64,000 bases of DNA from Lineus longissimus. Lineage: Eukaryota > Nemertea > Pilidiophora > Heteronemertea > Lineidae. Below, piece after piece: positions 6,070 to 62,400 of this stretch. Under the pieces are notes generated by a model. It did not search any database and was not told where the DNA came from. It saw only the letters and a program-made list of their open reading frames with translations. How positions within the stretch are numbered: the stretch's first letter is position 1; every line of letters starts with the position of its first letter. The translations under genes and the position numbers were made by a program. The stretch lies in assembly GCF_910592395.1 (NCBI RefSeq), contig NC_088324.1:10132953-10196952 (forward strand), in the 5' to 3' direction.

Positions 6070-6690
6070 ATCTGGTATGTGACATAACATAGGTGTTTCA
6101 CCGTGTGACCTAACATAGTATTTCACCATCACTAGTTTCACCATTAGGTGCCATTACATAGGTGTTTCACCGTGTGACCTAACATAGTATTTCACCATCA
6201 CTAGTTTCACCATTAGGTGACATAACATAGGTGTTTCACCATGTGACCTAACATAGTATTTCACCATCACTAGTTTCACCATTAGGTGACATAACATAGG
6301 TGTTTCACCATGTGACCTAACATAGTATTTCACCATCACTAGTTTCACCATTAGGTGACATAACATAGGTGTTTCACCATGTGACCTAACATAGTATTTC
6401 ACCATCACTAGTTTCACCATTAGGTGACATAACATAGGTATTTCACCATGTGACCTAACATAGTATTTCACCATCACTAGTTTCACCATTAGGTGACATA
6501 ACATAGGTGTTTCACCGTGTGGCATAACACAGTATTTCTTCATCACCAGTTTCACCATTAGGTGACATAACATAGGTGTTTCACCATGTGACGTAACACA
6601 GTATTTTACCATCACCAGTTTCACCATTAGGTGACATAACATAGGTGTTTCACCATGTGACGTTACATAGTATTTCACCACAGAGACATT
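6070..6690. repeat. 69-base minisatellite (about nine copies)
   Basis: Head-to-tail copies of a 69-base unit built on CATAACATAGGTGTTTCACC, then a related sub-unit ATAGTATTTCACCATCACTA. The period is a multiple of three, so the minus strand stays open for 186 codons as a 23-residue repeat. This is a property of the repeat and I do not call a gene. Units at the right end (about 6500-6680) are more diverged than the central ones. Confidence 0.9.
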
Positions 6691-7530
6691 TTGCCATGAG
6701 ACGTACACAGGCACGACAGAGGATCAAATCACCATAGATTCTATGATAGCCTGTCATGAATTCTATGACACAGAATTTACCTTAATCAAAGTATCAATCA
6801 ACCTTAAATACACAACGCAACATATAACAAAATTTGTCCTAATAAAATCAATATTAATAGAGTCGAATGAAATATTTGTGATAATGTCAAAATACAATTC
6901 AATATAAAATGCATGTCATATTTAAAAACAATATATCGCACTGATGGTAGGCAACAAAAATATATGAGATATCATTTGGAATGGATATTTATATAATTAT
7001 TAATATAGATGGCAGCACCAGTTGGAAAGACGAGGACGATGTTTATAATTTGGCTCATCTATCTATCCATTTTAATTGTTAGAGCTAATGTTTCTCATTA
7101 CTACATTTTGTACATATGAATACTCCATTCACTCTCATAAGACTTTCTTATGTCATATTTTGTGCATTTGAATTAATCTGCTTCCTATCAGATGCGGCCA
7201 ACGCTTTTCAATGCAAACCTTGGAAAATCGGAAAAAACTTCCAACGCCCAGTCTGCTAATTCCCTTGGTTCTGGAAAGAGGGAGCCAAAGTCACCATATT
7301 CTGGAAATCTAAAGCGCCCATAAAAAAGCCATTTCTGTCATTTGGGCGCTGCTCAACATAAGCCAAGTTCGACAAGTATAGACAAATCCATACATGCCCA
7401 AACTCAAATTATTCCTTAAATCTTACACTCTCTGACTTCTTGACTTCTTCCCCATCATTTCCAAGTTATTTGCTGCAAATTACAAATTACAAGCATTTTC
7501 AAGATAATTTCGTTTTCAAGTTTCTTTATC

Positions 7531-42938: not shown

Positions 42939-45900
42939 CTGAAATGCGAAACAGATTGTAAAATTAACGCTAATATGCCAAGTGCAAGCTCAATTTTCAC
43001 CATGGGGGAGGGGAGACCAGAGAACCAGCAAGCATAACATAGAACCTTTTGATATCGGGGAACATAAATATTCCGATGCAAATGAACCAGAAAATCTGTT
43101 AGGCCCATGATCCCACACTTGCACATCGCCTCTACTCCTCTTTGGAGACCATTGTCTGTCTCCGGAGCAGCCATGGCCGGAAAGGATCAAGGTGGTACTT
43201 AGTTAAGTAATGCAATGTCCCAGCTCAGTTTTGAGATTCAAGCATTACAGACAACTTTTGATTACATTTCTATGTTTGTTTGTACACCTAACCATTGAAA
43301 TCGCACCTGTCGCGTGAGTTAATATCACTCGCCAACACACTGCAGTCGGGTTTGAACCATGGCACAGACAGACACTCTATCATGGAGCTCAAATTTCAGA
43401 AAGGTCACAAACACATCATTGTTTCAAGGAACTCTGAATTGCGTACCTTCCAACTTTTTGTCTTAACCACTTGACATGATCGATAAGTCTCATCCTCTCT
43501 TTTCGTGGGTCGACGTATTCTCGTTGCTCATCTGGTGCTTTGAGCAAGACTCCATTGTGTAGCTGTAGCAGTGTCTCGAAGTCGGCCAAGTCTTCATCAA
43601 CCTGGTGGTAGTTAATCTCATCTGGGGGTACCTGAGATAGGGGGGAAAAAAGATAAACATTGGGTTAAGTTGAAAACTAACCGGGGACCTTCCTCAATAT
43701 TATCCACTTTCATTATTTTTGATTTTGGCCGAAGAGCTGTTTTTTTATAATGTAGACTTGTACTCGCACTCACCTGATTCCAACGATACATTCTTGGGAA
43801 ATACTGTGGTGTGATGGACTCACGCCTCTTCTCTATCAGCCTGAAATTGTAAAGCATAACATACATCATTACGAGGGAGAAATGTCTTTCATAGGAAAAA
43901 CAAACTTTTAAAGTTCAGAAAACTTGAACTCTTTAATGCCATAGAGGAAGCATCATAGAATCAGACTTCTATCAAAACTGCACCTTATCAGGTCTGGCCG
44001 TAGCTGATAAACCGAGTATACCTGATACTTCTAGTGCACACAAATCATGCACAATTACAGATGTATGAGTCATGACCGACAATACTGACCTCATGCAGTT
44101 ACAACTAAACAACTTTTTGCTTTTTTCCAATCGTTTTACTTCAACATGTTCAAAAATTCAGTGAAAAACTTCATCACGGCTGTACGTTTACTCACGTTAT
44201 AAGCTTTTCCCTGGTGTTTATCTGTATCCTCTTGATCTGTTCTGGAGTCCAGTCAACAGGTGACACTGTGCCGGTGCTGCCCAGGGCCATGTTGATGGCA
44301 GTTCGCACACCATTCACCTAAAGAACAAGAAAATGCATAATTTTTGTCACTGACATTTGCTGTTATATAAAGCAGAGAAATTCCTGTCATCTGAAGTTTT
44401 ACTGAACACACAAAACATCACAGATAACAAATGACCTTGACCTGTTCCACCTCCCAATCAATAGCTGACTGACGCAGAGGCAACCAGAGGTCTGCCTGGG
44501 AATATATGACAATAACACAAAAGATTAGCTCTACTTTAGAATAAGAGCATTATTCAAACATTGCGCCCCGCACTGTGACAAAAGAATCACTAACGCAAAG
44601 CATTATGGTGAAGTCTTTAAATAGAATGAGGACTCCCCAAGGGGAATTCCTCAATACATTCCAGCAAAAGCCATTCAGACGACAGAAAACCTAACCACTT
44701 AAAAGCATTTTTTGATTGAGTGGGGATTCAAATTCACAGGAATTGTTTTATGAGCTTGACCAGTCTATTTTTTCCTGACCTCGCCAAGAAAACAGTTGTT
44801 ACAGATGTCTGAGATGAGTGCTGTGCAGGAAAACACAAGTCCTCTGTTCAGGAAGTCAACATGACTCTCCTCTATACACGAAGTTCTATTTTAAAGCACG
44901 GTGACATTGGCATCAACTAAAGCTTTCGGTGACCATGAAACACCACAATGAACAGCTATTGTGTCACTGTGAAACATCACTTTTGGCTAGGGAATACTTC
45001 TGGATGCAGAAAATCTGCTCTGTGGATAGGAAAATACAGATGTGAATTGACAATTTCCACAACTCTTACCTCTGTCATCAAGAGCAAGACATCGCTCTAT
45101 CAAGGACTGATTTGTCAGAATGCAAGGGTGTCGTTAAAAGTGGTTCTATGGTGACATTATGACTGATATTATTTTGAGTGAAGTTCAAGTCAGATGAGGA
45201 AACAATTATAAATCACATCCATGGTCAATTGTGCGAAATTTAAGATTTAGCCCTGTTGCAAGAAATCTTCCGCTAAGGTTGACAAAATGTTTCCTCTGCA
45301 CGAAGCGGTTCAAAATGGCGACTTGGATGAAGTCAAGCGTCTCGTTCTGCAGGGGGAAGACATCAATGCAAAGAACGATACGGGCTGGATGGTGCTACAC
45401 TGTGTAGCTAGGTCAACAGACGTCAAAGTTGCAGAGTATTTAGTGAGCCGGGGTGCTGACGTAAACGGTAACACTGACGGTGGAAATAACGCTTTGTTGT
45501 TTTGCTCCACTCAGGGCAACATCGACATGGTGAAATGTTTGGTGAATCTTGGAGCGGATATTAACTCTAGAAATAAGTTCGGTTTTAATGCGTTGCACAA
45601 GGCATCGCAGTCAACAAACTTAAACCTCATAGATTACCTAGTCACTCACGGTTTGGATGTGAATTCGAGAACTTTTAAAGGCAGTACCGCGTTACTTCTA
45701 TCTTCAACTAAAGGTTATCTGGACATGGTAAAATGTTTACTCAGACTGGGCGCTGACATCAGCTCAATGGACAAGGCTGGGTTTAATGTTTTACACAGGG
45801 CCAGTCAATCGACTAATACTGATCTCGTAGCATATCTGGTCAGTCAGGGGCTGGACGTTAATTGCCAAACCACTCAGGGTGACAACCCAATACTTCTTTC

Positions 45901-48900
45901 CACAGCAAAAGGTGATACAGGCATGGTCAAGTGTCTGATAAGTCTAGGTGCCGATATAAACTCGGAGGATACTATGGGATGCAACGTAATGCACCAGGCA
46001 TCCTTATCAAACAATCCTGCCCTTGTAGAATATCTGGTCAGTCGGGGTTTTGATGTGAATTGCAAAAGTACTCTCGAGGATGACCCATTGCTACTTTCAT
46101 CAGGTCAAGGTCAATTAGAAATGGTGAAATGTTTGATGCGATTGGGAGAAGATATCAAGACGTTGGACATGTTGGGATACAGTGTCTTGCACAAGGCTTC
46201 GAAATCAAACAATCCTGACCTCGTGGAATACCTTGTCGGTCAGGGTTTGGATGTGAATAGTAAAACACTTGACGAGGTCACGCCGCTGCCCTTGTCAGCT
46301 GAGACGGGTCACTTAGGCGTGGTCAAGTGTCTCATCAGACTTGGGGCTGATATAAACTCCGAGGATATCCTTGGCTACAATGCATTGCACAGAGCTTCTG
46401 AATCGAACAATCCTGAGATTGTGGAATATCTGGTCAGTCAGGGTTTGGATGTAGAATGTAAGGTATTCAATGACGCCACTCCATTAATTCTGTCGTCGGG
46501 GAGAGGTGATATAGATATGGTGAAATGCCTGATTGGCCTGGGTGCAAACATAAACAGCAGGGATACAAACGGGCAGACTGCGTTGCACAGGGCGTCTAAA
46601 TCTATCAACCCTCAGCTCGTAGAGTACCTAGTCAGTCAGGGTTTGGATGTGGACTGTAAAACTCCCGATGGAGTCTCTCCATTAGTGGCCTGCTCCTCAA
46701 ATGGAAACATGACCATGGTGAAGTGCCTGATCGATCTGGGGGCAGATATAAACTCCACAGACCAGAATGGGTTCAACGCCATCCTCTCCGCATCGATCTC
46801 TAATAATCCTGACCTCGTGCAATATCTCGTAGCTCAGGGTCTGAGTGTCAATTCAAAATCATTTGAGGAAGGTACCCCGTTAACTCTATCATGTTGGAAA
46901 GGTAATTTGGACATGGTGAAACGTCTGATTGGTCTCGGGGCTGACACCATCTCAACAGACAGGAACGGGTACAATGCGATGCACTGGGCTTCTCTTTCAG
47001 GTAATCATGCACTGGCAGCTTATCTTGTCCGTCAGGGTTGCAATGTGAACTGTAAAACGCCCGGAAATGACACTCCAATATCTTTATCATCGAACAAAGG
47101 TGACCTTGAAATGGTGAAATTTCTAATCAGCCTTGGGGCTGACATAAACTCCGAGGACAGAAGTGGGTTAAATTTGCTTCATCAGGCATCACAATCAACA
47201 AATCAAAACCTTGTTGAATTCCTGGTCAGTCAGGGCTTAGATGCAAACAGTAAAACAGCTGTAGGAAAGACCCCACTGCTTTTATCAACAGAGAAAGGCA
47301 ACATGGGCATGGTGAAATGTCTGATCAGGCTTGGGGCTGATATCAGCTCCAGGGATCAGTATGGGCAGAATGTAATGCACCTGGCAACTTTATCAACCAA
47401 TACTGACCTTGTGGAATATCTGGTCAGTCAGGGTTTAGACGTGAATAGCGAAACTCTTGAGGCAGTTACTCCGTTATTACTGTCATCATGGAAAAGTGAC
47501 CTGGACATGGTGAAATGTCTGATCAGGCTGGGGGCTGATATCAACTCAATGAATACAAGAAGCTGGGGGGCAATGCACTACGCAGCCAAATCATCCAATC
47601 CAGCACTCTTGGAACAGCTGGCTGATCTGGGGCTGGATGTGAATGGGAAATCTATAGATGACACAACTCCATTACAAATATCTTCAGATATAGGCAACAT
47701 GGACATGGTGAAATGTCTGATCAGACTCGGGGCTGATATATATGCCATGGATAAGCTTGGATGCAACGTTCTTCACCGGGCATCCATATCTAAGAATCCC
47801 GACCTCGTGAATTATCTGGTAAGTCTCGGTCTTGATGTGAATGGTACAACTACATATGGCCTTACTCCGTTATCGATGACTTCAGATAAAGGAGACATGG
47901 ACATGGTGAAATGCTTGATTGGATTGGGTGCTGATGTCAACACCAAGGATACACAAGGATATACTGTGATGCACATGGCATCTCTCTCGACCAATCTGGA
48001 ACTAATAGAGCACCTAGTCAATGAGGGACTGGATGTGAACTGTAAAACATTTGACTATTTCACTCCACTGTTGCTTTCATCAGAAAGAGGCAACATGGAG
48101 ATGGTGAAATGTCTGATCAGATTCGGGGCTGATATCAACGCAGTGGACAAGATCGGCTACAACGTCTTGCACAAGGCATCAATCTCAAGCAATCCTGATC
48201 TTGTGGAGTATCTCATCAGTCAGGGTTTGGATGTGAACAGTAAAACCTTTGGTTTCTTTACCCCTCTTTTGTTGTCGTCTGAACGAGGTAACCTGGATAT
48301 TGTGAAATGTCTGATCAGGCTGGGCGCTGACATCAACACAGTGGATATAAAAGGTGCAAATGTAATATACTGGGCATCCAAGTCCTGCAATCCTGGCCTG
48401 GTGAAATACCTGGTCAGTCAGGGATTGGATGTGAATTGTAGAAACCTCGACAGCATCTCTCCGCTGTGTCTGGCATCGCATGAAGGCAACAGGGACATGG
48501 TGAAATGTCTAATTGAACTTGGGGCCGATATCAACTACAAGGACAGAATAGGGGCTAATGCCCTGCACAGGGCATCTCTTTCACACAATCCTGACGTCAC
48601 AGAATATCTCGTCAGTCAAGGTTTGGATGTGAACTGTAAGACACTTGAGGAGTTTACTCCGCTAGGTCTAGCATCAAATCTCGGCAACATGGAGATGGTG
48701 AAATGTCTGATCAAACTCGGGGCTGATATCAACATCAAGGATAAGAAAGGATTCAATCTGCTGCACAGGGCATCTCAAGCAACGAACACAGACCTTGTTG
48801 AATATCTGGTCGGTCAGGGTGTTGATATAAATTGTAAAGCCGAAGGCGAGAATATCTCTGTATCACCACTGTCATTGGCATCAAGCGAAGGCAACCTTGA

Positions 48901-51900
48901 CATGGTCAAATGTCTGATTAGCCTGGGTGCTGACATGATGACCAAGGATAAGGAAGGGTACAGTGTGCTACACAGGGCGGCAACATCAACCAATCCTGAC
49001 CTAGTAGAATATCTAGTAAGTCAGGGTGCTGATGTGAACTGTAAAGATGAGGGTGGTTCGACTCCATTCCACTTGTCGTTCTTGCTCAAAGATGATGATA
49101 CAACATCCTACCTAATCAATATTACGGATGCGGTGCACTCATTTCACCCATGGCACCCACTCCCTACTGGTGCGGAGCTTGGGTTTACCTCTGGTACCCG
49201 GCTGCTCCTTGACGTGGCCAATACACAAATCTCACAGTCTGAACTCGACCGTGCTCTGCAACTGAGTTGCTGCTACGGCCAAACCGATGTCGCAAGATTA
49301 CTGCTACTGAAAGGGGCTGACACTAACACAGGTGACCATCTTGGACGAAAGCCACTGAAGTTCTCACCTTTTTCTACATTTATCGATTACGAGAAAGTAT
49401 TCTCTACCAGTATGTCGCAAATGCTCAAAACCCCAATGGAACTCATCACTAGGTTACCAGGCATCGGTAGTGTCAGGGTGATCCCACACAATTATGCACA
49501 AGTGGTCCACATCGACATTTTGAATTTCTACGACAATCTACCATTCGCAGGTGAAATGTTCACCAATGCCATAAAGAGGCAATGTGGGAGTGCTGCTGAG
49601 GGCTGCCGAGTAGGCCTCCCCAACGAAATGGATATTCTGTTCATCATTCACTCCACCGGAATAGTCTGCACAACACCGATATGCTCTGGATACTTGCAGT
49701 ATTCACGGCAAGGAGACAAGCTATTAGAAAGGGGAAGTAAAAGTTTCCATGAAACTTTTTTCAAGGAACTGCAGTCAGTCGTGCAAACTGGTTATAGAAC
49801 GGAGAGAGTAAGCATATATGAAGCTGGGAAATTACATAGCTACACAAAAATGATGAATCGCAAGGCATGTACTCCTATGTTACCGATGTGGTGTGATGGG
49901 TTGAATGTTCTTTTTGTTTCTGTTGACACAGTGCCGTGTGTTCACATCAATGACTGGCGTGACGAATTTATCGCCCGGACGTGGCTGATGGATCGCTCTG
50001 AACTGCAGTTGCGAGGATACCTCCTGGTGCCAAAACCACCTCACAGGAAAAGTAAGCTTGCCAAACAATTCACTCAGAAAGAACTGAATGAAATGTGGAG
50101 GATTTCATTCGCACATCTTGAAGTTGAACACATCAGCAGATTGGAAGACAGAATCAAAGATGTTTACATCACAGCCAAATGTTTGAGGAACCCAGATGTG
50201 TGTCGCATCATGATTACTGAAGGTGAAGGTTTACCAAAGAATGTTGATGACTATATCAGTAGTTATGTACTGAAGTCAATATTTTTGAAAAATGTGGAGG
50301 GTTTTATCGAGTTGGACCTGAGTCTTGGTGAGATGGTGTGTAAGGTGTATGATGACGTAGACGACGCCTTCCACAAGGGCTTCATTCCCATGTTCTTCGC
50401 ACCAAAGTTCAATGTCATCGATGGATTCAAACTTGACTTGGCCAAGAGTGCCAAAGTAGCCAGTGTAATGAAAGCATTTGTGAGGAGGTTGCATAACGGG
50501 GGAAAGGATGCTGCAGACCTCTGTGCTGTTCCCATAGAAACAGAGGAGTGGACATACACTGCATTTGACATAATCAGCAACCAAACTACCACATGGAAGA
50601 TTAAAAACATTCCAAAGGCAGATGCCCCTTGGCAACGGTGGTTTCGGTGGGCTAGAGATCAGGTGAGGTTGGCGCTGCCTCGTCTTATTTCATTGGGTGT
50701 CGGGACATGCAGACTATTCCGGCACCACTCAGACCTGACAGGGTACCCAAGTATTTTTGGTCAGGGTCATTTGATTGGCAGTATCCTTGTAGCCTTATTG
50801 GCTGGGCTAGTCACATATTTATCCTGGTAGCTTTGCTGACTCTAACAAACTTCAAAATTAACCCATGGACTTACCATTGTGAGATCATCATTGTCTATCG
50901 TCACATCAAATGTGATTTCCATTTCATGATCCGGGAAGGCTGGATGGCCGCTGTCAGGATCCACCCCGAGGCCACACAGCACACCAATATATTTAGTCCT
51001 TGCTGAATCGGTCCTAAATGAAGAGAGAGAATAATATAATCTATATTGCCTTGAATCTGGGATATCAGAACTTTGTCACTTTTCTATTATCTTGTATAAA
51101 GTCTAAAGTCAAAATTTTGGGTTTATAGTCTTGTTGGACTTAATATTTGGCTCAAGTGCTACAGCCCTGAGTCTACAGCCCTGAGTCTACAGCCCTGAGT
51201 CTACAGCCCTGAGTCTGTAGCACTTGTTTCAGTTTTAGCTTGGTATCTGTTAACCATTTCTCTGGTTTCAAAGAGCTAATACAGTATCAACACAAAGGCT
51301 CATGACGGATGTTTTGGCTCATGACCATTTCGACCATTGGGGCAAAATGACTTCAGGTCATGCGTCATAAGCCGAAAGTTACATGGGCCGAAAAGACCAT
51401 ACATCCTCAAAAGAACCTTTTGTGGCAAATATTTCCAAGCTGGGGTAAATGCAAAGAGAATATGAGTACAGAACCTACCTAATCTCCGCACATGGAGCAA
51501 ACAGCAAAGCAAGGATTGCCGGAAGTCCATGGATATGAGGCATGATAGTAGTATTCCTGGCGATGATTGAATTCCCAGATGGATTGAGCCCAACATGAGC
51601 AGCCACCATGAGTCGGTCATGAGAGTCCTGGGGTTCATCGTCGATTGTAATGCAGTTGATGCTGTCTCTCTCGATCTTCACTGACCTAAGTGAAAAGCAG
51701 AATGACGAGCTAATCAAGACACTAGATATCTACCAAAGGACTTTACTCACCCCAAAAATACAAACAAGCAATTTTTGTTGCTGCCACCTATGATTATAAT
51801 TGCTGGTATGCGGGACAAAAATATCAGTTAGTAAAACCAGCAAATGCTGGGTTTGATATCGGAGCGATCCCGAGATTCTCGTTCGGTTCACTCACCTTAG

Positions 51901-54900
51901 TCTAGAGACCTTCGTGATACCATTGAAAGAAACTTCATATGCCGAGTTGGGTCCTTGTACGGTGATCTGAAAAGATCCGACTTCAATCAGACTTGATGGT
52001 ATAAATGCAGGAAAGTAATGACAGAATATAAGACACAGAGACTTAAGGGTTAGGACAGTCATGGCAGCATACATTACACAGTCACATCAATGACAAATGA
52101 CATACACTAGTGTGTTACATGATGTCAGGACAGCACAATTCATGAAAATGCCAATGCCAGGCCAGGAGGGCCAAGGCTGTACACTGCTGCCTATAATGCT
52201 TTTTAATAGCTTGCAAAGTTTCTTCTTTACTGTATTGTAGGCCTATTCTGAACTTTGATACTGCTGTAGGCTTCTTAGCCTGCAACATCTTTTTTCATTG
52301 TAGGCCTATTCTGAACTTTGATACTGCTGTAGGCTTCTTAGCCTGCAATGTCTTTTTTCATTGTAGGCCTATTCTGAACCTTGATACTGCTGTAGGCTTC
52401 TTAGCCTGCAATGTCTTTTTTCATTGTAGGCCTATTCTGAAGATGTAGGCAAGCATGGTAGCACTGACAACTTAAGAGATATACCAGCATATATCATTGC
52501 CAGGATAGTCACGACACTAACAACATGCATCCTCATGGCCTACATATGGTCAGTACAGAATGATGATGTGTAGATAGTCAATGCATTAGCAATGTCAATA
52601 CACGCGACAGAGCAAGATCAATGTTTGGACAATCGTGACAAAATGCACTGCAAAGAGACATGTCCATCGCTGGGCAGCCATGACAGCATGCATGACACGA
52701 CGACGAAACCCTCAATTCAGAACTGAAAGTATAAATACTATTGGCATGCTCAATTACGCAAAACAACGATATGATCACAAGAATAATCACCTTGTGTCCC
52801 CTCTTGGAGGAGCCCATGGCCTTGCCTGCGTCTGCTACTGCCAATTCCAACCAACTATCATCTGTATGCTGGGACCCGCCTAATCCAGGGTTGACGTCAT
52901 AGTCTCGAGACTGGTGATTTTGCTGGAAGGAAGAATAGAAACTAAAAGAAGTTAAGTGGACCACATTGAGTTAGACCCTTCTGGCGTAAGATGTCGATAA
53001 TGAAGCTAAAGAGGCCAGTCTCCCCCTTATCACTATGGCCAGCAATAGCCCAGACCCTATGGGTTGGAGACCGCTTAATTTCGACACCACAGTTTTCAAC
53101 AGCATTTCCTTACCCTCGATGCATAACCTTCCTCCACTGGTTCAGCTAGACCCTTCCTGCACAATTCGTCATTGAGATTCACAGTGGCATTGCGACGATA
53201 CTGGATAATCAACTCTGCTCTGATCTTGCCACTGACTATGGAGTAGATCTGAAGAAGATTAAGCAGGAAATATTAGTTTATTACATCCACCTTGGGTCCA
53301 AAATATTCCGGTTTAAGCTAAATGTAAAGAAGCTCACCAGGCTGGAGGCTCTCACAGTTTAACTACCAGTCTTACTCCCCCTGTCGAAGAAACTGGTCTA
53401 ATGCAAGTTCACTTCCCAGTTGAGATTGGAAACCATCAAGATATACTCCTGGCTCACTGACCAATAAACCCAATTGGTGCCTAATCGTAGTGGCACACAG
53501 ACGCTCATGTATCAGTGGAGGATGAATAACTCCCTGGTGAATCCCTCTTCCAAGTGCAGAGCAAACGTTGAAGAAGAAAAACGACTCCTGGGTGAAGAGA
53601 ATACCTTAATGAGGCATGGATTCTTTGTTTGTCGCTCAATCAAGTCTTTTGCCTCCCGGCTCCACTGGCCATCCATACCTCTTGTGTTGGACGGCCGCAC
53701 GCCGGACAGGAAACATTCCATGGCCTGAAATAACAAAAATGCGAAAAATGCAACAGTTGACATTGACAAACAATACTGTGTGGTTTGTAAAGTAAAGGCA
53801 ACATTTAAATGTATATCCCTGAAATTGAACAATACAAAAGGCTCATTATCATATCCTCCCATAAGACCTAACCTGGAATTCTTCCTTGAGTAATGATGGC
53901 GGTATCTGCCTGATCTTCTGATGAAGCTGAGCTCGGTTGATCGTCTCCTTGTTCCCATAGTCGACAAAGAACACCTGGAATCGACAGAAATAAACATGAA
54001 AATATGCAAATATATGGTGATATTATGCACTCAATTGTCAATATTCTTCAGGTTATACAATAAAAAATACTAATTAAACAGATGTGTCTGCTTTAGGGAG
54101 GTATCACTGCTATTCTATGCTCACCTTTATAGTATCCATTGTTACAGACTCCACCCTAGCACGGTAGAATGTGCCCTGGAACTCTGCCAGGCAAAGCTGA
54201 CCAACTGCAGGGTTTTTTATCGGGTCCACAGGAGACGACTGGAGGTGTTCTGCTATGGTCAGGTCAAGGGAACTGACCACTGAGTGATGGTCCGTGTAGA
54301 ATGCCCAGAAATGGCCTGCATCTTCTATCTGTAAGAGATCTTTGATTATGCTAGAGCCAGGTCAAGCGAATTGACCTGAGTGATGGTTAATGTAGAACAG
54401 CCGGAAATGGCCCATATCTTGCATCTGCGAGTAAATATATACCATATGACTACCTCTAGTTACACCACACGAAGGTCTTCTGCTACAGGTTGAAAAGGAA
54501 CTGACAAAGTGATATTTGTGCTGAAAGTGTAGAAATCTTCAATATCTTCTATCTGCCTGGGGAGGTATAATTTCAATATAATATGAATCATTTGTGAGTA
54601 TTGGAAGAAGCCTTTTTACAACAGGCCATGCTTTACCGTATCTTAAATTACGTTCACTGATTGCGTGTAGAGATCAGTTACTTTTGCTAGACAGCACTAT
54701 TTATTTTTGGTAATGACATAACATGGGCAGAAGTACTTACATGGGAGATTACAACAGGTACTGTGGACTGGAGTGGTCCTGGTAACTCCACCTGCTTAGC
54801 CTGCTGGCTCTGGGCTTGCTCTCGGTCACCAAGCAACTTGATCCTAATCAACAAGGAGATGAAATTATGCAATTTACATATTAGCAAAAATATATAAGCA

Positions 54901-57900
54901 AGTTTATTCAGAATTTTGCCAAGATTTGTCAGGATTATACTTATACTCTCAGAGTGGGACATCTTCCCCGCCCTTGCATAGACTCACCTGTTTGATCGTA
55001 ACCGTGACAACTGCTTGGCCTGGTTGTCTCGGGCAATGTCGAGTTGTTCCATTTGTTTTTGCACAATCTGTGGGTCGATCGGGTCCAAGTGGAGACTCTT
55101 AGTTTGCCTGGAGAAATTCACAACATTTTACTAATTAGCAATAGAGTATGCATAAAAAAAGATTTATGAGAAGTGTTCTGTTGGAGCATCAAATCATGGC
55201 ACAATGCCAGAAGTACCACATCATTTCAGGCTTTTCCTATCATGTCGGCACACATTACCTAACTAGTATTTTTCTTCAACAAATACCTTTACTACACCTT
55301 GTTTTCGCCAGAAGAAATGTTCACATTCGTAAAAGTTTGCTTACTTGAGTTTAAGTGCCAGGTAGACGGCTTTAGTGACCTTAGTCATATCATCTTCATC
55401 AGGTTGGAACTCAATGAAAGCTCTCGAGCCTTCGAAGTGGATTTGTATTGGCTTGATGGTGCAAGCATCTCGGCCAATAAACATCATCTCCAGGGATGAC
55501 TTGTAGAGGGCGCTTTCTTTGGCTGGAAGACCTTTCACCTGCAGAGTAAAACGACTTGCAATATTGACGGAGCATTCACAATTATTTTGAAACAAGGTTT
55601 GTAACATACGTCCCTCTAATGTCATTCGACGTCGTCATATTGAAACATCAGGCCAAGTCCCCACCACTGGCACCAGTCAATGACTGTGATTAGGTCAAGG
55701 TGAATTGGCTAGAATTGTTCTCAAAAGAGTTGTACAGTACAATACATGACGTGAGGTAAGTCATAAATTTGCAGTTACCATGACCACCGTCTTTGGGTCA
55801 AATCCAGACATGGCCTTTACTGCATCCTCCTCCTCGGGTTTGCTGCACAGGAAGAAATTCGGGTAGAAAGCACCGGCCATCAGCAGCTGAAAGAAGGACA
55901 ACCTAAATATAACAATAACCTAATTATTTCTTTATCTACTTTTTAAAGGTGAAGTGACACATGATATTTGAGGAATAACCACAGCTTACAATTAAGCTTG
56001 CCCATATATTGAAGAGCTTACCAATTTTTGCTGAATAAGGAGTTGGAAGGAGAAGTGATGGCCACAACTCCTCTCAATCATTCCCCAGAAACTGCAGTGC
56101 TTTGAGAAAGGATTCCTCAGAAAAGCACTATATCAGTGTGGAATTATTTTACTTCACAGAACTCTTACCTACCTTCAAAATGAGACTGTTCTCGACCTCA
56201 ATCTCTGGTCTCCTGTCACGTCTGTTCTGCATTGGTCTCTGGATGTTGAATTTGGCCAACCTCTGGCTGATCTCGCGCACGAGCTCAGTAACCTAGCAAC
56301 GAAGAAAGACAGGCATATGTGATGTTACCATGGCAACTAGTCATATGTTGAACAAAATGATGAATTATTGTACCATCTGCCAACCTAATACATATCTTAC
56401 AGCAAGTTTTGTTTAATAAGAATAATATAAAAATTTCATACCTCTCGCAATCGTTTCAACTCCAGCAGATTTTGTTTGCACCACTGTATCTCGGATGCTC
56501 CCGGTCTCTTGAACTGGCCAAATTTTTTCTCCTGGTCCCAAAGCTGGAAGAAAATTTTTCAACTGTTAGAAAATCTATGCACTGGCACAAAATAAGCAGC
56601 AAGCAGAGATGACAGAAGCCAAGGGCATTGCCCGTCCTCAACCACACACTTAACAGCCTTTTAAAGGGGCCAAGTGCTCTGACCCATATTTCAAATCTCT
56701 GGAGACGACTGCCAACTAAATTTTGACCTCCCCTCTCCCCTATCTCAGGAGACCCACACTCTCAACATACCTCTTTCCCATGTAATCCTGAGTGCGCATG
56801 TGGTCACTGTCAATCCCAAAGACAAAAGTATGGGGGCTGAGTACCCCCCCCCCCGTCAAATGATTGAAAGGAGGATATTCGCCAAATCAACCCATTGTTT
56901 ATAAAATTATACCTGATTTCATTCAGTCAATGATATGATTATGAGCTGAACACGCTGAACTGAACATATTGAGAAAAACATAAATTTGAATTTCCCGCCG
57001 GGTAACTCGGAAACTATCATTTGTCATGGTACTTTAGTCTTTAACCTGTCACGAAATAGCTTTTTCATCCTCTTGTGAACCTTGCTTGTGAACAGAAATG
57101 AACATTGACAAAGGAAAGCCATACAGAATAGCTGTAGGCCTATACATGGCTTGGTGCGCATGGTAACCTGATAAGGAATATTGACAGTGAGGACTCGGCA
57201 GAGCAAGGGCAGGGTGCTTCATGGTGTCACTCCTTTTTAGGACCTCACTTGCAGTGGTCTGCTTTAGTAACCTAAATACTCTTCATCCGCTAGTTCGGGC
57301 TGCAGGAAGTGCGTGTGCTAAACTTTAGAATTACCGATCGGATGTTCCTCCGCACTATATAAGTTGTGAATCGGTTTAAAGGGTTAGGGTTAGGGTTAGG
57401 CTACTTGTTCATTATTCGGTATTCATTCGCCCCTTAGACCTATACTTCCGATCGGGAATTCTAAAGTCGTTCCAGTGCGTGTACAACCACTGCAAAATTT
57501 CATAGCTATATTCCCGCTATACATGCAATAAAAACACTATGGCAGCTAGGATTGTACCAACCCATTTCATAGCGATTCAAGTCAAAGATCAGAAGACTGT
57601 GGATGCTCTTGAGAATGTTCAGAACAGTGTCGTAAAGAAAAGGCGTGCAATGCGGCGTGTCATGATATCACCAAGAACCTTCCACATTACACTTATGGTG
57701 TTTAGAATAGAAAATGAAGACGACAGTCTGAGAGCTAAAGAAGCGCTTGATGCCGTCTATGCTCGCCTAAAGGAAGAATACAAGGCTAACCCGATTAAGG
57801 TCGTGTTCGAAGGCATTGGCAACTTCAGGAATCAAAATAAAGTAGTCTATGCAGATGTCATAGATGAGCTTACCATTGACAGGCTGAGGGCTCTGTCTGA

Positions 57901-59443
57901 TGTTATTAGGGAAATCTACGAAGCTGCATCGCTAAAAGCTACTGATGACCGCTTCACTGTCCATATGACCTTGATGAAGATGTCCAAAGTCACGTGGAAA
58001 TGGCAAAACCAAATGGGTATTAAGACGATTGATCCATCACTCTATGCAGAGTTTGCTGAGCAGGTGTTCGGCACTACAACAGTTAGCAGTCTTCAGGTAT
58101 TTGATAGTGTAAAATAAAAATTGGTTAAAATTGGTCGTCAGGGAAAATATTTTTTCATTTCTCTCTATTTAATGGTCGGGGGAGAAGAAAAAAGTGTGTC
58201 AAAAACAGTCATTAAAAAATTACCCCCGGTTGATTCGTAATCAAACAAATAAAATAATTGTAGCCTTAAAGTCAAGAATTCTAAAACAATTTTGATGGTA
58301 AAAAGATTCAAAGGCTCAAAATATATCCACTTTTTTGTTGAAGGGTATTATTGTTCTTACCCTTAGTTCATTCCACTTTTGTTTTTTGCATTATCATCAT
58401 CATAATTATCTGTTTCAGGTATGCTCAATGGCAGGGGATGAGGAAACTGGGTATTATAAAATCCTACACGAAGTCCATTTTCAGGAAACCGAACCTACTG
58501 ACCCCAAAAGTCTTCCTCAAAGCAGTGGAGGTTCACCTGCGAAAGAAATTGTGCAACACGAAATTGGACTGGATGAAGCAGAAAATACCGCCATGGATGG
58601 TGATCCTAAGTGTCTTCCTGAAGCAAGTGGAGGTTTGCCTGAAGAAGAAATTGTGCAAGACGCAAGTGTACACGATGCAGCAGAAGATCTTGCCATGGAC
58701 GTCAACCCCACATATAGCCAAAGAAGGCAGATGAGTTCTCGTGAAAAAACTACCGCAGCACGGAGAACACCCACCCACTTCATCGCGATTCAAGTCAAAG
58801 ATCAGAAGACTGTGGATGCTCTTGAGAATGTTCAGAACAGTGTCGTAAAGAAAAGGCGTGCAATGCGGCGTGTAATGACATCGCCAAAAAAGTTCCATAT
58901 TACGCTCATGGTGTTTAGAATAGATAACGAGGATGATGTTCTGAGAGCTAAAGAAGCCCTTGATGCAGCCCACGCTCTCCTGAAGGACGAATATGAGGCT
59001 GACCCAATCAAGGTGGCATTCCAAGGCACGAACAACTTCAAGAATCAAAATAAAATAGTCTATGCAGACATCAAAGATGCTCTAATTCATGAGAGGCTGA
59101 AGAAGCTGTCCGATGTTCTGAGGGAATGCTACGAAGCTGCATCGCTTAAAGCTACTGATGACCGCTTCACTCCTCATCTGACTCTGATGAAGATGTTGAA
59201 AACCACATCGAAATGGAGGCAACAAACGGGCATCAAGATCATTGTTCCGTCCCTCTACGCCGAGTTTGCAGAGGAAGAGTTTGGTGCTACCACTGTTGAC
59301 AGCCTTCAGGTATTATCAAAAATTTATATTTCAATTTTCACAATAAACGCAGTAACATGGATTAACTTTAATACCACTTACACATGCTTTTTAGCTCACC
59401 TCTTAGCAGAGGTGAGCTTATCCCATACCGTGGCGTCCGTCGT

Positions 59444-59493
<50 letters not shown>

Positions 59494-62400
59494 CGTCGTC
59501 CGTTAGCAGGGCACGTTTCGTAACTGTTAGAGCTATTGAGTTGAAACTTGGTACACATGTACCCTTATGTAATGACACCTTGGAGACCAAGTTTCGGTCC
59601 GATTCGTTTCATGGTTTGGCCACCAGGGGGCCAAACGTTAAAAGTGAAAATATGCAATATCTCCCTTAATAGTAGTCGGGAAATTTTGAAAAAAATATGG
59701 TAGGTACTTCTAGCAAAGGTGCATCATATATCCTCCGGGTTTTTGATTTGACCTCCTTTTCAAGGTCACAGAGGTCAAATGGTGTAAATTGGCCATTAGG
59801 ATGTAACGATGGCACGTTTCTAAACTGCAATGACTATTGATACCAAATTTGGTACACATTTACCCCTTAGTCAGGTGATCTCAGGGACCGAAGTTTGGTC
59901 CAATATGATTCACCACTTGACCACCAGGTGGCAAAATCCAAAAACCTTAAAAATGTGATTATTCCTTAACTTCTTGCCCGATTGCCACTAATTTGATATC
60001 ATGGGTACATCTAACCACCATACAGTATATGTCACACAGGTTTTTAATTTAACCTTCTTGTCAAGGTCACAGAGGTCAAATGGCGTAAATTCGCCGTCAG
60101 GCCGTAACTATGGCGCGTTTCTTAACTGCAATGACTATTGATCACAAATTAAGTACACATGTACCCCTTGGTCAGGTGATCTCAGGTACCGAAGTTTGGT
60201 GCGATCTGATTTGCCGTTTGGCCTCCAGGGAGGGGGCCAAATCCTAAATTCTTCAAAATGCCATTATTCCTAGTAATGACTTGCCCGATTGGCACCAATT
60301 TTATATCATAGGTACATCTAATTCTAACAACCATTCAATGTGTCACCCAGGTCTTCTTTGATTTGACCTACTTTTCAAGGTCACAGAGGTCGAATGTACT
60401 GTAAATTGGCCATTTTGGGGAAATTGTAATTGCTTGGACCTACATCAAACCTAACACTACATGACACAATACCATGCTCTTTATCCATCTTTCCTCCACA
60501 TGAGGTGAGCACAATGGCCCTGGCCATTTCATTTAAACCTCTACCTGATATAAACTAAGTCACAGTGCAGCCATTTTATGACGGGTTGTATAGACAAAGG
60601 GTGGGAGCCCTAATCTTTGTTAAAAACAATTCAAAATGTCTCGGTGCTTTTTCTGGAACCTGTTGAAGTATTGTCTTTAAAATTTTTTTATACTGGATAT
60701 TTAATCTTTTTGCTATTGGTTTTAAGGTGTGCTCCATGGATGATGATAATGAGGAGACTGGTTATTATGAAATCCTACATGAAGTCCATTTTCATGGAAC
60801 CGAACATACCAACCCTACATGTCTTCCTAAAACTTCACCTCCAAAAGAAATCGTGCAAGACGAAAGTGGTGACAATTAACTAGAAAATACTGCCATGGAC
60901 GTTGGTGCAACAAGTCCTGACCCTGAAACTGTTCTTTACCAGGTGACGATTCGCCTAAGAAAGAAATCGTGCAAGACGAAAGTGTTGTGAAAAATACAGA
61001 AAATACTGCCATGAACATTGACCGTACAAGTCCTCCTGAAACGGGATGAAACTGAACCCAACTCAGACATTGAAGAACAAAAGAAAATTGAATCCTCAAT
61101 GAGATTCATCTGTTCAGTCAAGTAGTCAGAATAGACAAAGTTCTATCTTTTTTCAAAGAAGAATGAAAACAACAATTATAATATTGAGATTCCATGACTA
61201 CTCAAGTCAGTTTTGTTAGAAGAACATTCACTATAAAATACTTGCAACGATTTCACAATGAACATTAGCAGAATCATCTCCACCATGTCCAGTGTTCCAT
61301 GTAAATATTGCTTTGAGTGTGTTTTTCCTGTTTTTTCAATTTGAGCATGTTAAGACAAAGATCGTTTTCACACCCTTGGTGTTCCTGGCTAGCCTGTCAT
61401 TTGCTGCTGCTTTAGGCATATGCCAATTTACAATTTATAAATTGAGTGTAAGAAGTGAATAAAATACTTTTGCTTGAGAGCCTCAATACATGTATTCATA
61501 CTGCAAAAAACTTGTGGAGAATGACACGAGAAAGGGTTAGTCCTTACCTTATATGCATTCAACATGGCGATGCAATCACTGAACGAGCCCATGGACCATG
61601 TCAACTTTTTTCTGGAAAAAATATAATTCAGTGAGAGAGAACATCCGACAGCAACAAATAATAGAATATTATTTTCAATTTTCTTCCCATCAAGTATTGA
61701 GTCAAGAGCATGCAAGCTGACAATATTTGGGCAATTTGTACTGTAGGAGGACACCCAAAGGAAACCTATGCTGTTGAATGGAGTCACCCACTCTATCAGA
61801 TGAGTACAGGAATGGACGGGGAATCAAACCCGGGACCTCAGAGGTGACAGGGGCTGATGTTTCCATCACACCTGCCAACAGGCTCCAAGTATCCATTGCA
61901 GCAGGAAACGGGCCAAAGCGGGAAAGGCTTTCACAGGCATCAGATTGCCGGTAATCTCAATGCAAGTTATTTCCCCGGGAATTGTACACAAAGCCTGTGG
62001 AACGGTCTTCCTTGTTTTCCTATGGAGGAGATCAGATCACACACCACATCCTCCAAGACCGCTTTCGCTTCTGTATCCATTGCAAAGCGACTCTGGATGA
62101 CCAGACCAATCTCAAGGTTGAAAGAAGAAGAAGTCGTCAAATGTTAAGAAGGAAAATACGTAGTTCGGAGACAAAGTGATGAGCTGCGTTGGTCAAAAAG
62201 GTTACAGACTTACTTGTACGCTTTGAACTTCTCCCCGTATGGCGTTCTGAAGATGGACTTGATAGACAAACCAGCACCTAGAAGATCAAGGAGAACTATT
62301 CAAATCAATGGATCAGTCCCAGGAGTCCATTTTAAAGTCATTTTGAATTCAGCAGACAAACGCTTCATTAAAAAAAGCAGATCTTGCATTGTTCAGGATA

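Follow-up and report, generated by a model that had tools for sequence, protein, structure and literature searches.

An ankyrin-cGLR open reading frame in Lineus longissimus and the large paralog family around it

An ankyrin array fused to a cGAS-type enzyme

A 64,000-nucleotide stretch of the genome of the nemertean Lineus longissimus (NCBI RefSeq assembly GCF_910592395.1, contig NC_088324.1, positions 10,132,953 to 10,196,952; hereafter the window) contains an open reading frame (ORF) in which a very large array of ankyrin repeats precedes a nucleotidyltransferase (NTase) domain of the cGAS/Mab-21 type, as found in cGAS-like receptors (cGLRs). The features of the locus are collected in Table 1. 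A reading made earlier from the letters of the DNA (the sequence-only reading) had described the ORF as a single, unusual receptor with a membrane tail. The genome instead holds dozens of related loci, and this family corrects the picture of one oddity with a membrane tail.

Table 1. Features of the window discussed in the text (positions count from the first base of the window)
Feature	Coordinates	Strand	Basis
Ankyrin-cGLR ORF, ATG to stop, 1847 residues	45287..50830	+	ORF reading; purifying selection
38 in-register ankyrin repeats, residues 1 to ~1263, with a 66-residue two-repeat unit	45287..49075	+	
Last ankyrin repeat, set apart from the array, with the junction leading into the enzyme domain, residues ~1310-1432	49214..49582	+	
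cGAS/Mab-21 NTase domain, residues ~1433-1740	49583..50506	+	Profile, Pfam and fold evidence
G1434-S1435	49586..49591	+	
E1447-M-D1449, predicted metal ligands	49625..49633	+	
D1547, predicted third metal ligand	49925..49927	+	
Hydrophobic tail of doubtful status, residues 1793-1847, either coding or intron read-through	50663..50827	+	
GT of the strongest donor-like site in the ORF, CAG|GTGAGG, after residue 1792	50663..50664	+	Donor matrix not fitted to the species
TDRD9/Spindle-E-like exon just past the cGLR ORF, antisense	50875..51013	-	
Exon that probably follows in this TDRD9/Spindle-E-like gene	44196..44317	-	Splice sites and reading frame
AKAP7-like 2H phosphoesterase, frame 1	57539..58117	+	
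AKAP7-like 2H phosphoesterase, frame 2, with N-terminal extension; domain ends near 59316	58428..59669	+	

The 1847-residue protein matches Pfam Ank_2 with an E-value of 6.4e-229, and a motif scan finds 33-residue spacing across the whole array. With a profile derived from the repeats of the window itself, 38 are counted in this register, bearing out the earlier estimate of about 38, and 39 after one iteration, the 39th being the isolated repeat ahead of the enzyme domain. Self-identity of the array is 0.52 at a lag of 66 residues versus 0.24 at a lag of 33. When 17 units of the array were compared (136 pairs), the proportion of synonymous differences (pS) was 0.69 but that of nonsynonymous differences (pN) only 0.28; the array is therefore old and its protein sequence has been kept, and the ORF is not a chance frame. 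Units differ most from one another outside the structural ankyrin positions, and sequence related to the junction region is found in most relatives.

G1434, S1435, E1447, D1449, D1547 and W1604 all lie exactly where the sequence-only reading had placed them, and the active-site motif is complete, comprising the GS pair, the two acids and the third acid. All seven members of an alignment of the C-terminal region match both Mab-21 and Mab-21_C at E ≤ 0.1. Searched against the PDB, the profile of this alignment finds porcine cGAS (4jlx, 7e-9) and a cGLR (8gjw, 2.1e-8), and cGAS and cGLR entries run through the top 50 of the fold search; the large fold lists are second looks at Foldseek's own matches and cover the families listed there. 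The identity of the NTase thus derives from the family alignment and its profile, since the single-sequence Mab-21 match is weak, and profile and fold search agree in assigning the cGAS/Mab-21 NTase fold. Alignment and fold match suggest that E1447, D1449 and D1547 may meet in one pocket. Of the outcomes named in advance as contrary, neither a lack of any Mab-21/NTase match nor a lack of an NTase fold occurred. The proposed fusion of a very large ankyrin array to an NTase of the Mab-21/cGAS type whose metal-ligand residues are intact is thus supported.

The sequence contains no Cys-Cys pair or zinc-ribbon-like insertion between its WRISF and SSY motifs, and lacks the zinc-binding insertion after the WRLSF motif that marks zinc-ribbon cGAS. 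The earlier statement that there is no zinc ribbon therefore stands. The non-DNA ligand deduced from it is a weak conclusion, since, according to PMC12928593, non-human homologs are without the ribbon and an oyster cGLR senses double-stranded DNA.

Dozens of related loci with conserved enzymes and variable arrays

With the C-terminal 503 residues as query, the genome yields 79 matches (from 85 scored of 99 candidates), corresponding to at least 73 loci including the window after six matches were merged into neighboring loci under a 4-kb rule. An open frame of at least 800 residues without a stop within the match is present at 63 of these 73 loci; frames reach at least 1400 residues at 28 and exceed that of the window at 13, while the match contains a stop at five and the frame is shorter than 500 residues at four. 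Clusters of three or more account for 37 loci. To read individual members, 24 stretches of 10 kb each were taken around Mab-21 or family matches, and a readable family ORF was found in 21. No C-terminal match at 1e-3 came from L024, L025 or L027. In L026 a stop interrupts the frame at the catalytic motif, L032 runs past the 5' end of its stretch, and L001-L008, taken from the genome-wide Mab-21 search, served only as BLAST targets.

Every one of the 21 paralogs read carries ankyrin repeats, from 6 to 70 each, roughly 50 other loci lying outside that reading, and single uninterrupted frames extend to 2822 residues in the part read. The metal ligands E, D and D are intact in 20 of 20 paralogs with a readable domain. 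In L017 a G is aligned with the Ser of the GS pair and the motif is one residue shorter, which may be an effect of the alignment. The same locus (G000:C16:15012191-15022190) also features a strong hydrophobic segment near its N-terminus (2.69 on the Kyte-Doolittle scale at residue 9).

The ratio of nonsynonymous to synonymous substitution (dN/dS) is 0.12-0.16 for the window and 0.28-0.31 for L032, and ranges from 0.32 to 1.31 among the copies of the C17 cluster, there over small distances. The NTases of this cluster are 90.5-98.1% identical, yet their arrays contain 7, 16, 34, 38 and 42 repeats. Within one young C17 array the units differ by a pS of 0.060 and a pN of 0.063; arrays there have therefore been recently made or evened out.

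The protein database contributed 15 relatives (6 from Lineus longissimus, 8 from JGI metagenomes and 1 from another source), of which 14 have ankyrin domains, the exception, P0013, being a 344-residue piece. These overlap with the genomic loci: L020, L022 and L023 are P0012, P0014 and P0010, with identical lengths and ends, and L014 corresponds to P0007. A viral origin was also considered and rejected, as an IMG/VR scan gave 47 pattern matches with no relative among them.

STING-like sequence is present in the same genome. A domain match just above the cut-off contains a typical STING stretch, and a second set of candidate exons, joined by script, matches STING structures at 1.4e-8. There are apparently two STING-like genes side by side (G000:C11:2035123-2044271), with an ankyrin-cGLR locus ~80 kb away, at C11:2123764. 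A single weak OAS1_C match (7.3e-5) was found in a 363-residue frame at G000:C14:15918795-15919217.

A doubtful hydrophobic C-terminus

The frame does end in a single hydrophobic segment within ~30 residues of its C-terminus, as the sequence-only reading had noted (Kyte-Doolittle 2.03 over 19 residues from 1829); its translation is doubtful, and the membrane tail proposed from it is not supported. CAG|GTGAGG, at the first base of the tail, outscores every other donor in the ORF and ranks second among the 3469 GT sites of the plus strand, as judged with a matrix not fitted to this species. Similarity to the paralogs stops near residue 1788, just ahead of this site, and model confidence over the tail is only 35-61. 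No homologue of the tail was found in 32 loci (L001-L027 searched at E up to 10, L028-L032 at E up to 1e-3). On the Kyte-Doolittle scale, C-terminal segments reach at most 1.39 in the 21 paralog ORFs and 1.66 in the 15 database relatives, none of them comparable in strength, so a membrane tail as a family-defining feature is rejected. At L014 (G000:C14:16121289-16131288), moreover, the genomic frame and the database protein P0007 part at a donor near the place where the window's tail begins, and the protein gains a further domain. P0007 ends in a ZZ-type zinc-finger-like stretch, recognized by eye.

Some evidence nonetheless favors a coding tail. Of the window's 5990 non-coding stops, just 10 have a comparable segment, and L012 and L026, the closest paralogs with this end of the frame, have no strong donor at the corresponding place, contrary to what read-through would suggest. 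Codon usage divides, falling in the coding range by a table drawn from the whole ORF and appearing non-coding-like by a stricter table from the NTase and AKAP7-like frames. For a downstream exon of the spliced form, one plus-strand acceptor-like site scores at least 7 up to position 57600; as known-looking acceptors of the antisense gene score 2.3-9.6, this single site says little. A tail-anchored cGLR, in which residues 1826-1847 would insert into a membrane and position the enzyme, perhaps as an intron-retaining isoform, seems to us doubtful. A precedent exists in the p46 and p42 isoforms of OAS1, an innate-immune NTase whose membrane targeting is set by C-terminal splicing. OAS1 uses prenylation to this end, whereas the tail of the window ORF would be a possible transmembrane helix, its expression unproven.

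A probable route from protein recognition to a nucleotide messenger

We consider it probable that these loci form a large nemertean cGLR family in which an ankyrin array, placed ahead of a catalytically competent NTase, would couple the sensing of a protein to the production of a nucleotide messenger. The array would bind a protein, either pathogen-derived or a host guard or scaffold protein; binding, acting through the junction, would alter or cluster the NTase; and the enzyme would then synthesize a second messenger of nucleotide type, probably a cyclic dinucleotide that STING reads. This proposal builds on results established here. The ORF has the described architecture, a cGAS-like sequence and the predicted fold; catalytic residues are intact throughout the family and amino-acid change is selected against; and the genome contains dozens of paralogous loci as well as STING-like sequence. 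Several points weigh against it. The single-sequence Pfam Mab-21 match (6.3e-5) scores 23.5 bits versus a curated cut-off of 24.1, its E-value within the whole protein is 0.00064, and the locus is not among the 25 genome-wide Mab-21 matches listed. Identity to cGAS in structural alignments is just 14-18%. Expression, enzyme activity, product and ligand, and the role of the array as the sensing part, are what we infer from sequence, and some Mab-21 proteins, in shrimp, signal without catalysis and are said to be without NTase residues (PMC12928593).

Three shrimp Mab-21 proteins, reported to bind IKK-epsilon, are a precedent for reading the family as non-catalytic adaptors, with the Mab-21 domain acting by protein binding and the array serving as a scaffold, in keeping with the usual protein-binding role of ankyrin repeats. 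The essential NTase residues said to be missing in shrimp are, however, kept in the window and in all the readable paralogs, under purifying selection, making an adaptor unlikely. Since Mab-21 was first known from development (PMC12928593), the duplicated ankyrin-NTase genes might instead have a developmental or housekeeping role, with no part in immunity. Their copy number, their tandem clusters and the dN/dS of the young copies resemble immune-gene turnover, and the prominence of cGAS and cGLR entries in the fold search likewise speaks against such a role, which we regard as improbable.

The neighborhood of the ORF raises a further explanation, in which the NTase would make a 2'-5'-linked nucleotide and two AKAP7-like 2H phosphoesterases, 7 kb downstream, would destroy it. 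The two frames lie in tandem on the same strand, each with its domain in one open frame, and match AKAP7_NLS at 1.3e-35 and 1.6e-34; in both, the first and second His motifs align to those of AKAP7/AKAP18. With 6 matches, the genome holds about four genes of this type, these two included. PMC8406329 reports cleavage of 2',5'-linked oligonucleotides by mouse AKAP7 and by a relative from oyster. The same source reports that mouse AKAP7 does not degrade 2'3'-cGAMP, which weakens the case for erasure of a cGAMP-like signal. The linkage was, moreover, seen at this locus only: the remaining AKAP7 matches (C7, C11) lie far away from the listed cGLR loci, and the 24 stretches of 10 kb around paralogs contain none. 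It is known from one species, and the weak OAS1_C match elsewhere offers an alternative reason for an enzyme that cleaves 2',5'-oligoadenylates. Such a pairing of maker and eraser is accordingly very unlikely.

Relation to known cGLRs

Both cGLR radiations and ankyrin-cGLR fusions are already known; PMC9980059 reports 42 cGLRs in a coral and over 200 in some bivalves, and ankyrin-fused members are published there. To call the architecture itself unusual, as the sequence-only reading did, was thus an overstatement, given these fusions and the dozens of related loci in the genome. The metazoan cGLRs described there resemble the window family in their cGAS-type NTase with GS, E/D and D residues, ankyrin fusion, radiation and a STING gene in the genome, but are mostly stand-alone (87% of those reported), whereas each paralog read here has an array. 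Cv-cGLR1 of Crassostrea virginica (PDB 8gjw) shares 17% identity in structural alignment, its solved chain being the enzyme domain only. Vertebrate cGAS differs from the window ORF, which is without a zinc-ribbon-like insertion between the WRISF and SSY motifs and has an ankyrin array in front. The words Nemertea and Lineus do not occur in the main text of PMC9980059, and the literature searched contains no description of nemertean cGLRs, of ankyrin arrays of such size, or of cGLRs that are near-identical yet differ widely in their ankyrin arrays. Nor did any relevant paper on tail-bearing or membrane cGLRs appear among those listed.

The number of related loci points to a large unexplored repertoire of immune receptors. 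We tentatively suggest, as a conjecture that is possible rather than probable, that in Lineus longissimus the length and surface of the array are the variable part of a germ-line receptor repertoire, in which arrays of 6-70 repeats would grow and shrink by tandem duplication and perform recognition, while nearly identical cyclic-nucleotide synthases would signal to STING. Direct sensing of nucleic acids by the enzyme domain is the rule among known cGLRs, many of which are orphans. If this conjecture is true, keeping the enzyme while the length of a protein-binding solenoid varies tenfold would have turned cGLR signaling into a protein-recognition system, with a logic comparable to that of NLRs. 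The function of the array could naturally be probed in the C17 cluster, whose members combine near-identical enzymes with arrays of 7 to 42 repeats.

Genes and repeats surrounding the ORF

A gene resembling the piRNA-pathway helicase TDRD9/Spindle-E spans 43447-63951 on the minus strand, and its introns appear to hold both the cGLR ORF and the AKAP7-like frames. It matches the helicase structure 9nhs at 3e-87, and its C-terminal exons give 4.8e-32. Judging from the exon positions, the cGLR ORF probably lies inside one of its introns and the AKAP7-like frames inside another; alignment reaches only the first residues of the exon at 44317-44196, which is otherwise placed by splice sites and frame. 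A protein-database search with the AKAP7-like neighbors, which detects only relatives sharing short words, returned 115 candidates and none at E ≤ 0.001. Elsewhere in the window, a tandem repeat at 6154-6723 on the minus strand contains an open frame of a repeated short peptide, and a 63-base unit is repeated in tandem at 97% at 52234-52441.

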